Shown here in pieces: positions 32,872-36,997 of a stretch of 57,056 bases of DNA. The position numbers were made by a program, and so were the translations under genes. Position 1 is the first letter of the stretch, and each line of letters starts with the position of its first letter. The notes beneath the pieces were generated by a model, which had not been told where the DNA came from, ran no database searches, and saw only the letters and a program-made list of their open reading frames with translations. This stretch comes from Arthrobacter sp. SDTb3-6 (GTDB lineage: Bacteria > Actinomycetota > Actinomycetes > Actinomycetales > Micrococcaceae): the NCBI RefSeq assembly GCF_013376095.1, contig NZ_JAAMFN010000029.1, positions 1 through 57,056 on the forward strand. The letters are read 5' to 3'.

Positions 32872-34131
32872 GTGGTCAGTGCAAAGGCGCCTGGGCATGT
32901 GGCGGTTGTTGGTGCGGGGATCATCGGGCTCTCCACCGCCTGGTATCTGCAGGAGCGCGGCATCGGCGTCACCGTGGTGGACCGCGGCGGGGTTGCCAGC
33001 GGTTCCTCGTGGGGCAATGCCGGCTGGCTGACCCCGGCCCTCACGCTTCCGCTCAGCGAACCCTCCGTCCTGGCCTACGGCCTGAAGGCGATGCTGGATC
33101 CTGCCTCGCCGCTGTATGTCCCGTTCTCCGCGGACCCGCAGTTGCTGAAATTCCTGGCCGGCTTTGCCCGGAACTGCACGCCCGGCAGGTGGCGGGCCGC
33201 CATGGGCGTCTTTGCCGAGGTGGGCCACACCGGCCTGGACGCCTTTGACGAGATTGCACAGGCCGCCGGACCCGGCGCCGAGCCCACCCGCCCGGCCGAT
33301 CCCTTCCTGGCGGCCTTTGCTTCCGTGGCGGACCGCGATGCACTGGTGAAGGAATTCCGCGTGATCCGCGAGACCGGCGGCAGCGTCGACTACTCGCTCA
33401 TGTCCGGCGGGGAAATCCGCGGCCTCGAGCCCGCCTTGGGCGCCGGCGTGGTGGCAGGCATCGGGATCCGCGGCCAGCGCTACCTCAACCCGCCGAGGTT
33501 CATGGATTCACTGGCCCGGTCCGTCACCGCCCGTGGCGGCACCATCACGGGTGCCTTCAACGTCCTGGACGTCCGTGACACCGGCACCGGCGTGGAAATC
33601 ATTGGCTCCGAGGGGCGTGCCCTTGCGGCCGACGCCGTTGTCCTCGCCACGGGCGCGTGGCTGGGGGCCCTGGCCCGCAGGTTCGGCGTCAGGCGGGTGG
33701 TCCAGGCCGGCCGCGGCTACAGCTTCACCGTGGTGCCCGGGGCCATGCCCGGCCGTCCCATTTATTTCCCTGCCCAGCGGGTGGCTTGCACCCCGCTGGG
33801 CGACAGGGTCCGGGTGGCCGGCATGATGGAGTTCCGCGACGCCGGTGCACCCCTGGACCCGCGGCGGATCCAGGCCATCGTGGCCGCCGCGGCGCCCATG
33901 TTCACGGGTATCGACTGGGAGGACCGTGCCGAGGAATGGGTGGGCGCACGGCCCTGCACCACGGACGGCTTCCCGCTGGTCGGCGCCTCACGGTCGCCGC
34001 GCGTGCACGTGGCCGGAGGCCACGGCATGTGGGGCATCGCGCTGGGCCCGCTGACCGGCAAGATGGTGGCCGCCGGGCTCACCGGCACCACGCCGCCGGC
34101 CATCATGCGCCACTTCAACCCGCTGCGCTGA
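32872..34131 (+). CDS. DadA-like FAD-dependent D-amino acid dehydrogenase
   Basis: 419 residues of the DAO/DadA family, oxidising D-amino acids or related amines with FAD. The N-terminal dinucleotide motif is VAVVGAGIIGLSTAWYL, followed by WGNAGWLTPAL, typical of DadA. The C-terminal substrate/FAD part has GARPCTTDGFPLVGASR and HVAGGHGMWGIALGPLTGKMVA. A GTG start at 32872 is preceded by GGGGAGGG. The substrate is uncertain: hydroxyproline or D-alanine type reactions are both possible. Confidence 0.88.
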   Translation: MVSAKAPGHVAVVGAGIIGLSTAWYLQERGIGVTVVDRGGVASGSSWGNAGWLTPALTLPLSEPSVLAYGLKAMLDPASPLYVPFSADPQLLKFLAGFARNCTPGRWRAAMGVFAEVGHTGLDAFDEIAQAAGPGAEPTRPADPFLAAFASVADRDALVKEFRVIRETGGSVDYSLMSGGEIRGLEPALGAGVVAGIGIRGQRYLNPPRFMDSLARSVTARGGTITGAFNVLDVRDTGTGVEIIGSEGRALAADAVVLATGAWLGALARRFGVRRVVQAGRGYSFTVVPGAMPGRPIYFPAQRVACTPLGDRVRVAGMMEFRDAGAPLDPRRIQAIVAAAAPMFTGIDWEDRAEEWVGARPCTTDGFPLVGASRSPRVHVAGGHGMWGIALGPLTGKMVAAGLTGTTPPAIMRHFNPLR

Positions 34132-34155
34132 GCCCGCAACACAAACGGTCACAAT

Positions 34156-34185
34156 TTGGCGCGGCGTCACAGGGCGGCCTACAGT
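34156..34185 (+). promoter_or_regulatory. Candidate promoter of the aromatic leader/DAHP synthase transcript
   Basis: TTGGCG (34156-34161) and TACAGT (34180-34185) are separated by 18 bases. Transcription starting about seven bases after the -10 would begin at or next to the leader peptide ATG (34192), making it a leaderless mRNA, common in Actinobacteria. Confidence 0.5.
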
Positions 34186-34191
34186 AAAGCC

Positions 34192-34251
34192 ATGACAAAC
34201 CGTTGGTATGCGTATTTTTCGTTGGCTCTGGAGGGGCCCGCGTCGAACTGA
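34192..34251 (+). CDS. Aromatic-rich leader peptide (attenuator) for DAHP synthase
   Basis: A 19-codon frame reads MTNRWYAYFSLALEGPASN. It packs Trp, Tyr, Tyr and Phe into five consecutive codons (TGG TAT GCG TAT TTT). TAT and TTT are rare in this high-GC genome, which should make the ribosome sensitive to charged tRNA supply. It precedes the gene for the first enzyme of aromatic synthesis by 116 bases. A 13-bp stem begins four bases after the TTT codon. The logic fits ribosome-mediated attenuation, as I recall for an aro leader (aroR) in Corynebacterium. Start and stop are read directly; the regulatory role is inferred. Confidence 0.85.
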   Translation: MTNRWYAYFSLALEGPASN

Positions 34252-34304
34252 CACGCATCCAACACACCTTCAGAGCCAACAGGACAGGGAACATTCCCTG
34301 TCCT
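34222..34304 (+). promoter_or_regulatory. Attenuator stem-loops between leader peptide and DAHP synthase
   Basis: TTGGCTCTGGAGG (34222-34234) pairs with CCTTCAGAGCCAA (34267-34279), 13 bp with one G-U. AGGACAGGGAA (34281-34291) pairs with TTCCCTGTCCT (34294-34304) as a terminator-like hairpin without a T-run. TTCAGA (34269-34274) could instead pair with TCTGAA (34325-34330). A ribosome stalled at the Trp/Tyr/Phe codons would cover the left arm of the first stem and change the fold. Confidence 0.65.
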
Positions 34305-34367
34305 TCGCCATTTCCAGGCGGGTTTCTGAACAGGGGCCCGCTGCCACCTGACATAAGGAACCGCCCC

Positions 34368-35513
34368 GTGACCACCACAGCAGCAGAAACCACCAGCACC
34401 GCAAACCTGCGTGTCAGCCAGTTCACCGCACTCCCGTCGCCGGCCGAACTCCAGGCCGAGCTGCCGTTGGACGCCCAGGCGGCCAACGTCGTCGAACGCG
34501 GCCGCGACCAGGTCCGGGCGGTCCTGGACGGGGTCGACGACCGCCTGTTGGTGATTGTGGGCCCGTGCTCCATCCACGATCCCGCCGCCGGCCTCGAGTA
34601 CGCGCACCGGCTGGCAGCGGCAGCCAGGGAGCACGAGGAGGGCCTGCTCGTGGTGATGCGCGCCTACTTCGAAAAGCCGCGCACCACGGTGGGCTGGAAG
34701 GGCCTGATCAACGATCCGCTCCTGGACGGCAGCCACGACGTCGCCACGGGCCTGCGGATGGCCCGGGAATTCCTTCTCGGCGTGGCCCGCCTCGGCCTGC
34801 CCGCCGGCACCGAATTCCTCGAACCCATCAGCCCCCAGTACACGGCCGACCTCATCGCCTGGGGCGCCATCGGGGCGCGCACCGCCGAAAGCCAGATCCA
34901 CCGCCAGCTCTCATCCGGGCTGTCCATGCCGGTGGGCTTCAAGAACGGCACCGACGGCGACCTCCAGGTGGCCCTTGACGCCTGCCAGGCCGCGAGTGCC
35001 GCGCAGTCCTTCCTGGGGGTCGACGGCGACGGCCGCGCCGCCCTCGTGGGCACCTCCGGCAACCCGGACACGCACGTGATCCTGCGCGGCGGCCGCAAGG
35101 GCCCCAACTACGCCGCGTCCGACGTCGAGGCCGCCGCGGCCCAGGCGGCAGGCGCCGGGATCAACCCCCGCCTGGTGGTGGATGCCAGCCACGCCAACTC
35201 CGGCAAAAGCCACCATCGGCAGGCCGAGGTGGCCCTGGAGATCGGCGCCCAGCTCGAAGGCGGCGGCCCCTCCTCGCAGGCCATTGCCGGCGTCATGCTC
35301 GAAAGCTTCCTGGTGGGAGGGGCACAGAAGCTGGACACCGGGGAGGTTGCTGCGGGCACGGCCCGGCTGAGCTACGGCCAGAGCGTCACGGACGCCTGCA
35401 TGGAGTGGGACGTGACGGCGGATGTGCTGGCGAAGCTGGCCGGGGCCTCGCACGCACGGCGCACCCGGGCACAGGAACAGCGCCCGGTCCCGGCCGGCCC
35501 AAGTTTCCGATAA
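34368..35513 (+). CDS. aroF: Class I 3-deoxy-7-phosphoheptulonate (DAHP) synthase
   Basis: 381 residues; condenses phosphoenolpyruvate and erythrose 4-phosphate, the committing step to chorismate. Type I AroF/G/H signatures: LLVIVGPCSIHDP, MRAYFEKPRTTVGWKGLINDP, EFLEPISPQY, GARTAESQIHRQLSSGLSMPVGFKNGTDG, and VDASHANSGKSHHRQ for the metal site. The GTG at 34368 has ATAAGGAA upstream. The frame continues 55 codons further upstream across the attenuator, but that part is not conserved-looking. Which aromatic amino acid inhibits it cannot be told here. Confidence 0.95.
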   Translation: MTTTAAETTSTANLRVSQFTALPSPAELQAELPLDAQAANVVERGRDQVRAVLDGVDDRLLVIVGPCSIHDPAAGLEYAHRLAAAAREHEEGLLVVMRAYFEKPRTTVGWKGLINDPLLDGSHDVATGLRMAREFLLGVARLGLPAGTEFLEPISPQYTADLIAWGAIGARTAESQIHRQLSSGLSMPVGFKNGTDGDLQVALDACQAASAAQSFLGVDGDGRAALVGTSGNPDTHVILRGGRKGPNYAASDVEAAAAQAAGAGINPRLVVDASHANSGKSHHRQAEVALEIGAQLEGGGPSSQAIAGVMLESFLVGGAQKLDTGEVAAGTARLSYGQSVTDACMEWDVTADVLAKLAGASHARRTRAQEQRPVPAGPSFR

Positions 35514-36184: not shown

Positions 36185-36997
36185 CTACTTGCGGCGCATG
36201 GAGGAAATGCCCCGCCACAGCCCGTACACCACGCCGGCGCCCGTGGCGGCCTGCAGGCCCAGGGTGGCGGCCCGGCGGCCCGAACGGTAGTCGTAAATGG
36301 GCCAGTTGTGTTCACGGGCGTGGCGGCGCAGCCTGGCATCGGGGTTGATTGCCACGGGGTTGCCCACCGTGGTCAGGAGCGGAATGTCGTTGTACGAGTC
36401 GCTGTAGGCCCAGCACCGGGCCAGGTCCAGCCCCTGCATTTCCGCCAGCTCGCGCACGGCCCGGCCCTTGGCGGCGCCATGGAGGATCTCGCCCACAATG
36501 CGTCCGGTGTAGAAGCCGCCGTCGACCTCGGCCACCGTGCCCAGGGCGCCGGTCAGCTTGAGCCGCTGGGCAATGACGCCGGCCACCTCCACGGGTGTCG
36601 CCGTCACGAGCCACACCTGCCGGCCGGATTTGAGGTGTTCCTGGGTCAGGGCCAGGGTGCCGGGCCAGATTTTCGAGACGATCATCTCGTCATAGACTTC
36701 CTCGCCCAGGTGGCGGACAAGGTCGGCGCTGATGCCGGCGGCCAGTTTTTGCGCCGAGTCCTGGATGGAATGGACGTCGGACATGTTTTCCCCGCGCAGG
36801 ATGAACTTCGCCTGCTTCCACGCGAATCCGGCGGCGTCACGCAGCGTGAAGGTCTTCTTCTGGTACATTTTGCGCGCCACGTGGAACAGGCTGGCGCCCT
36901 TCATGAGCGTGTTGTCCACGTCAAAGAATGCGGCTTCGCCCTGGAGTTTCGCAGCGGTCGAGGCAGCCTCGGCGCTATCGGTGGTCACATCGGGCAT
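36185..36997 (-). CDS. HAD-IB family phosphatase (SerB-like)
   Basis: 270 residues. The catalytic motif I is AAFFDVDNTLMKG (DxDxT, nucleophile Asp). Motif II is WLVTATP, and motif III/IV lies around KGRAVRELAEMQG and AYSDSYNDIPLLTTVG. Subfamily IB members act on phosphoserine or other small phosphomonoesters; many actinobacterial copies are of unknown substrate. The C-terminus carries a hydrophobic stretch (LGLQAATGAGVVYGLWRGI), perhaps a membrane anchor. The 3' end carries a short duplicated segment encoding the final residues. Confidence 0.88.
   Translation of the reverse strand: MPDVTTDSAEAASTAAKLQGEAAFFDVDNTLMKGASLFHVARKMYQKKTFTLRDAAGFAWKQAKFILRGENMSDVHSIQDSAQKLAAGISADLVRHLGEEVYDEMIVSKIWPGTLALTQEHLKSGRQVWLVTATPVEVAGVIAQRLKLTGALGTVAEVDGGFYTGRIVGEILHGAAKGRAVRELAEMQGLDLARCWAYSDSYNDIPLLTTVGNPVAINPDARLRRHAREHNWPIYDYRSGRRAATLGLQAATGAGVVYGLWRGISSMRRK

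Follow-up and report, generated by a model that had tools for sequence, protein, structure and literature searches.

How does a bacterium adjust the first step of aromatic biosynthesis when a short reading frame rich in tryptophan, tyrosine and phenylalanine codons lies just upstream of its DAHP synthase gene, and which of these amino acids would such a leader sense? The locus that raises this question lies in a stretch of DNA from Arthrobacter sp. SDTb3-6, hereafter the window, that comprises 57,056 nt (contig NZ_JAAMFN010000029.1 of assembly GCF_013376095.1, positions 1-57,056, forward strand). A leader termed aroR has reportedly been described upstream of aroF in Corynebacterium glutamicum by Neshat et al. 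in 2014. We consider it very likely that the window contains an aroR-type, ribosome-mediated attenuator that switches DAHP synthase on when aromatic amino acids are short. The leader itself is real and conserved, and it is most probably functional. An attenuator kind already known from one bacterium turns out, as judged by comparative analysis of leaders, to be unexpectedly widespread across the class.

The leader, its predicted promoter and its distribution

An earlier note on this DNA had described an aromatic leader peptide with an attenuator, and all of the parts that it listed are confirmed to be present where it placed them. The leader reading frame, MTNRWYAYFSLALEGPASN followed by a stop codon (34192..34251; this and all other features are on the plus strand unless noted), has 19 codons, begins with an ATG at 34192, ends with a stop codon at 34249-34251 and is conserved in both the family and the class. 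Its control codons occupy 34204..34218 and read W5 (TGG), Y6 (TAT), A7 (GCG), Y8 (TAT) and F9 (TTT), which places W, Y, Y and F inside five codons as the note had it. Downstream of the leader there is a likely ribosome binding site, AAGGA (34355..34359), followed by a type I DAHP synthase gene of the aroFGH family with a GTG start (34368..35513), the product of which matches TIGR00034 at 458.8 bits (cut-off 173.2) and NF009395 at 478.9 bits (cut-off 343). This GTG lies 176 nt downstream of the leader start, in agreement with the 180 bases that had been given as the outer bound. The leader region has a single match in its own genome. Downstream of the DAHP synthase gene is a HAD-IB family hydrolase gene on the minus strand (36185-36997; TIGR01490 at 168.3 bits, cut-off 98.3).

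The leader is preceded by a -10 element, TACAGT (34180..34185), that ends 6 nt 5' of the ATG, and by a -35 element, TTGGCG (34156..34161), that lies 18 nt before the -10 element and has four of six consensus letters; a strict sigma-70 scan of the leader region called neither of them. Of 119 order-level leaders, 116 have a TANNNT motif, with a background frequency of 0.0033 per position, that ends 6 or 7 nt 5' of the start codon (exactly 6 nt in 70 of them; the exceptions are L085, L103 and L106). The same spacing is found in 47 of 55 class-level leaders, most of which were chosen with the -10 element as a criterion. Because of this spacing at the order level, the leader mRNA is probably leaderless with transcription starting at the leader ATG, and the comparison thus bears out the leaderless start that had been proposed from the predicted -10 element.

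Conservation of the leader was followed outward from the genus. All 23 genomes searched in the genus have the DAHP synthase gene with a WYAYF core upstream, one of these leaders (L019) having a frameshift behind the core. In the family, the gene is present in 80 of 197 sampled genomes, and a core pattern (TGGTAYDCNTAYTTY-N6-GCNYTNGAR, at most one mismatch) was found in 78 of the 80 genomes with the gene versus none of the 117 without it, the gene and pattern lists having been matched up by eye. This co-occurrence is more than chance, and the two exceptions carry variant leaders (L027 with an insertion and L048 with MIKCWQAYF). A control with the reversed pattern gave none among the matches listed for the family genomes, and one genome (G094) has a second core-pattern match elsewhere with one mismatch. 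The exact core pattern occurs in 3 of 396 genomes of an even sample of the phylum, the window's own genome included.

Beyond the family, the DAHP synthase gene was found in 74 of 297 genomes of the order and 58 of 296 genomes of the class. A leader of the same layout is present in 36 of 40 upstream regions fetched from the order outside the family, and in 14 of 20 fetched from the class, where the six regions without a leader all belong to family f105 (L250-L252, L254, L255 and L266, in the stretch fetched). A related family, that of genome G281, has the gene in 92 of 111 genomes and the leader in 39 of 40 regions fetched, the second 20 of which were chosen from genera with YFWF leaders known or likely. 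Leaders were also absent from both regions fetched in family f77 (L127, L128), from the stretch fetched at two of three DAHP synthase paralogues of genome G854 (L122, L124) and from that at a type I DAHP synthase gene of genome G1176 (L292). Some of the type I genes without such a leader are extra copies. Automatic leader finding missed 18 loci, and 21 leaders were placed or corrected by hand.

A scan of GTDB contigs gave at least 118 pattern matches in named hosts; the pattern itself fixes RWY and F, so that the information lies in the start codon and the gene. Among the 118 matches listed, 112 have a DAHP synthase gene 155-366 nt downstream; for the other six, the available DNA ends no more than about 450 nt away. 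The hosts among the matches listed include Arthrobacter, Pseudarthrobacter, Paenarthrobacter, Sinomonas, Paeniglutamicibacter, Microbacterium, Promicromonospora, Isoptericola, Oerskovia, Phytoactinopolyspora and one Streptomyces. Additionally, Arthrobacter- or Zhihengliuella-like leaders were observed at L142 (labelled Sporosarcina beigongshangi, with a DAHP synthase 82% identical to that of the window) and L189 (labelled Kocuria polaris), assemblies that are possibly mislabelled or contaminated.

The earlier note had named conservation of the W, Y and F codons in relatives as a test of its claim, and this conservation is present. Among 174 leaders, a set that excludes L292 and the loci without a leader, W occurs within 14 codons in 171, Y in 174, F in 169 and all three in 166, counts that are favoured by a search that looked for aromatic residues. 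The aromatic set stays while its order and context shift by clade (WYAYF, WYWRF, WFTY, YWF, YFWF and WRFYF). Codon choice is strongly skewed, with 257 TAT versus 4 TAC and 172 TTT versus 29 TTC in codons 2-14 of the 174 leaders. Part of this bias could come from a need to keep the 5' end rich in AT and unfolded. In eight reading frames of the window picked by hand, TAT makes up 7 of 53 Tyr codons and TTT 18 of 77 Phe codons, so that the description of the control codons as rare in this genome holds for TAT and fairly well for TTT. TGG is the Trp codon and has no synonym.

Alternative stems and the position of the ribosome

The RNA that extends from the leader ATG to slightly beyond the gene start has a folding energy of -79 kcal/mol and is more stable than each of 200 shuffles (z -4.73). 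Its main stem pairs R1 (34221..34234) with R2 (34267..34280) over 14 bp in the minimum free energy fold, one more than the 13-bp stem that had been noticed behind the aromatic codons. The second hairpin, R3:R4 (34281..34304), has 10 bp (34281-34290 with 34295-34304); it is a candidate terminator, and the run of T that follows it is interrupted. Behind R4 there is a small hairpin, CGCC/GGCG (34306..34320; 34306-34309 with 34317-34320), which has two-sided changes at alignment columns 160-175 and 161-174. Further downstream is an R1-like strand, R5 (34317..34331), that can pair either with R2 or, through 34318-34322, with R6 (34337..34341). The competing pairing recognized earlier is possible as TTCAGA (34269-34274) with TCTGAA (34325-34330). 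R1:R2 and R2:R5 share R2, so mutually exclusive stems are present beside the control codons. Two further pairings involve the leader itself: R0 (34202..34213), the control-codon strand, can pair with R0' (34253..34263) behind the stop codon, a partner that beats the R0' of other clades, and part of R1 (34224-34228) can form a small hairpin with R1b (34234..34238).

In an alignment of 90 leaders from which near-duplicates had been removed (A1), R1:R2 is paired in 94.8% of cells with two-sided changes in 4 of 12 pairs, and R3:R4 is paired in 89.6% of cells with two-sided changes in 9 of 11 pairs. By these measures both stems covary. None of 500 shuffles matches either two-state structure in covariation score or in paired cells, although related sequences can exceed shuffles even without structure; the number of pairs with a two-sided change does not stand above the shuffles, 85 and 34 of which, respectively, reach the count. 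Complementarity measured against one-strand shuffles gave mean z values of -5.61 for R1:R2, -4.42 for R3:R4, -2.53 for R0:R0', -2.39 for R5:R6, -2.06 for R2:R5 and -1.01 for R6:R7. The z value for R2:R5 is below -1 in 29 of 42 clusters in the shuffle version, the partner-swap version being unusable for this pair on account of outlier energies and of R5 strands that are alike across clusters. By eye, a clade with YFWF leaders (L263-L265, L279, L281-L286 and most of L287-L306) seems to be without R3:R4 and has a short hairpin over the ribosome binding site. Two relatives, L304 and L305, lack R3:R4; as judged by eye, part of R2 lies there in a hairpin with 6-7 T behind it, which resembles a terminator but is placed differently from that of the window's family.

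The effect of a stalled ribosome was simulated for 144 leaders, comprising the 90 of alignment A1 and 54 class-level leaders (L303 removed), as equilibrium folds with an assumed ribosome footprint rather than as kinetics. When the ribosome occupies the last aromatic codon, which is Phe in 133 of the 144 leaders, R2 pairs downstream at a mean of 0.53 and above 0.5 in 84 leaders. With the ribosome on the first aromatic codon (Trp in 90, Tyr in 51) the mean is 0.04 and only 5 leaders exceed 0.5; the corresponding means are 0.15 without a ribosome and 0.08 with a ribosome at the stop codon. For the 57 leaders of the window's family the last-codon effect is 0.76; it is weaker in the 33 leaders from the rest of the order (0.52) and in the 54 from other orders (0.29). 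In this last group R2 was assigned automatically with less certainty, and at several YFWF loci the wrong strand may have been taken. In the window, the fraction of R2 moved from R1 to R5 is 0.0 for stalls at W5 and Y6, which leave R1:R2 intact (1.0), 0.55 for a stall at Y8 and 0.87 for a stall at F9, with W5 lying too far upstream for the ribosome to cover R1. The outcome was the same in a coarser simulation of the window, apart from a fall of R2:R5 to 0.21 in the longest transcript under the F9 stall.

Under the classical reading, these folds would make phenylalanine, and then tyrosine, the effective signal. The earlier note had held that all three aromatic amino acids are sensed at once. Since stalls on the first codon, which is often Trp, leave R2 on R1, equal sensing of the three is unsupported and has been lowered accordingly in our assessment. 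What stands of the earlier interpretation is the leader peptide, the alternative stems, the leaderless start and the codon conservation.

The attenuator that we favour would operate as follows. Transcription would begin at the leader ATG, as suggested by the conserved -10 spacing, and a ribosome would translate the 19-codon leader. When aromatic aminoacyl-tRNAs are sufficient, the ribosome would reach the stop codon, R1:R2 would form, the downstream RNA would adopt its default fold and the gene would be off. When phenylalanine (F9) or tyrosine (Y8) is short, a stalled ribosome would cover R1 and free R2, which would then pair with R5, and expression would rise. The codons, start, stems and alternative partners are conserved at the sequence level, whereas the stalling, the polarity and the read-out are inferred. 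For the polarity of the switch, with R2:R5 corresponding to an active gene, we would claim slightly better than even chances.

We retain the opposite polarity as a rival for two reasons: R0:R0' is conserved, and seven T follow R2:R5 in L305, which would make R2:R5 the terminator. According to this scheme, a stalled ribosome would cover R0 and prevent R0:R0', leaving R1:R2 to form with the gene on, while a plentiful supply would allow R0:R0' together with R1:R1b and R2:R5, turning the gene off. R0:R0' crosses R1:R2, and its complementarity tracks clade changes: tested against partners taken from other clades, the 49 R0 clusters give a mean z of -0.89, but z is below -1 in only 25 of them, and they are not independent lineages. 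In fold simulations of the window, R0:R0' and R1:R1b form at 0.99 as long as the transcript has yet to reach R2; once R2 is made, however, R1:R2 is the energetic default (0.98 in L002 without a ribosome), and it is removed by stalls at F9 and Y8. Survival of R1:R2 under W5 and Y6 stalls would fit the reversed scheme, which would also give W a role. Overall we regard this alternative as unlikely, at perhaps one chance in four.

A broader proposal, which is more speculative still, combines these pairings into a chain (R0-R0', R1-R2, R2-R5, R5-R6) of one ancestral, class-wide attenuator that would read three amino acids by position. A shortage at the stem-proximal codon, usually Phe, would turn the gene on, and a shortage at the distal codon, often Trp, would leave the stem in place and give a different or opposite response.

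Termination or translation as possible read-outs

For the classical attenuator that we prefer, we regard premature transcription termination as the likelier read-out, since some relatives have U-rich tails behind R3:R4 and since a review, in its accessible part, speaks of transcription attenuation for the C. glutamicum relative (PMC11802643). In the window, R3:R4 is followed by 4 T in 9 nt, and a terminator scan called none at the leader region. Among 173 leaders, 12 have 6 T or more in the 9 nt behind the best hairpin, as counted by an automatic finder whose choice of hairpin is not always R3:R4 and which missed the T-run of L305. A scan of 25 region pairs over 90 leaders found no conserved pairing that would break R3:R4. 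The best candidates for an antiterminator, both rejected, were R2:R4 (mean z -1.11; z at or below -1.645 in 32 of 90) and the region from R1b to the stop codon with R3 (mean z -0.74; 17 of 90 leaders); the same scan gave mean z values of -1.83 for R2:R5 and -1.48 for R1b-to-stop with R5.

Alternatively, the switch could act on translation, with a choice between R5:R6 and R6 paired to the ribosome binding site setting access to the DAHP synthase start. R6 can pair with the binding-site region in some clades, the YFWF clade has the short hairpin over this site noted above, and aroR is termed a translational regulatory leader peptide in the accessible part of PMC7356990. Against this, the mean unpaired probability of the site over the 144 leaders is 0.41 with R2 removed versus 0.43 with R2 present; removal of R2 makes the site more accessible by >0.05 in 24 leaders and less accessible in 40. 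R6:R7 is paired in 64.3% of cells and is the stem that stands least above its shuffles. Gating of the binding site was rejected as a general read-out for want of a consistent difference in access, and we consider translational attenuation improbable, more so than either the reversed polarity or the ancestral chain. Since T-runs are few, no conserved pairing opposes R3:R4 and there is no consistent change in access to the binding site, the way in which the fold acts on expression is inferred.

Two further explanations would dispense with attenuation. The near-invariance of the peptide within the window's genus would suit a functional small peptide, with the RNA stems merely fixing the codons. 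However, across families it is the aromatic cluster and the stem-forming codons that are kept, whereas the C-terminal part differs both in length and in sequence. This, together with the frameshift behind WYAYF in two relatives, makes the explanation very improbable. These two frameshifted leaders (L019 in genome G007 and L027 in genome G140) may indicate that the C-terminal part of the peptide does not matter, or may be sequencing errors. Least probable of all is a riboswitch or T-box in which leader translation has no role, since strong structure would suit it but the window has no Rfam match above the gathering score, and the TAT/TTT bias together with retention of W, Y and F favours translation; six weak Rfam matches at 34100-34420 are all far below the cut-off.

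Relation to known attenuators

Leaderless leader peptides with hairpins behind them are described for trpL, leuL and ilvL of Streptomyces lividans (PMC8079986), which concern other amino acids and genes, and the accessible part of that paper lists no DAHP synthase leader. The ilvBNC attenuator of C. glutamicum, according to the part of PMC11857589 that is accessible, likewise has a leaderless leader and is listed with a terminator, an antiterminator and a third hairpin over the ribosome landing region. It differs in its branched-chain codons and in an overlap of antiterminator and terminator that was not found in the 90 leaders scanned here. A proposed leader reading frame with a terminator also precedes the DAHP synthase gene aroF in Acholeplasma (uORFC-13-1; PMC8632094, in part), but this case involves other organisms, Phe codons and a leader that has a ribosome binding site. 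In its accessible part, the survey of Seliverstov et al. 2005 (PMC1262725) reports candidate structures linked to the metabolism of tryptophan, cysteine and leucine as well as T-boxes upstream of ileS, whereas for other amino acid pathways it gives none; aroF and aroG are not mentioned in the accessible parts of PMC11109978 and PMC4833913. The accessible literature that was searched contains no report of the leader in Micrococcaceae or as a class-wide element. If our reading is correct, many soil Actinomycetes set the feedback on the first aromatic step by a leaderless attenuator without a counterpart among the Rfam families. Its natural variants, which differ in the order, spacing and codon choice of W, Y and F, would allow a direct test of whether one attenuator senses several amino acids according to codon position. 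Replacement of this leader could additionally be useful for the production of aromatic compounds, for which aroR in C. glutamicum provides a precedent in the accessible part of PMC7356990.

The closest counterpart is this aroR leader, with which the window's leader probably belongs. Both place clustered aromatic codons, including Phe and Tyr, in a leader before a DAHP synthase gene under attenuation, which in the window is the probable mechanism. The C. glutamicum leader holds Phe-Tyr-Phe (PMC4046766; PMC11802643, each in part) and is described in the available section of PMC11802643 as responding to limitation of phenylalanine and not of tyrosine. In contrast to it, the leader in the window has WYAYF with Trp first and a weak T-run behind R3:R4. 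Two loci presumed to be from Corynebacterium (L267 and L268) have WRFYF leaders in the same layout, which contain the reported Phe-Tyr-Phe.
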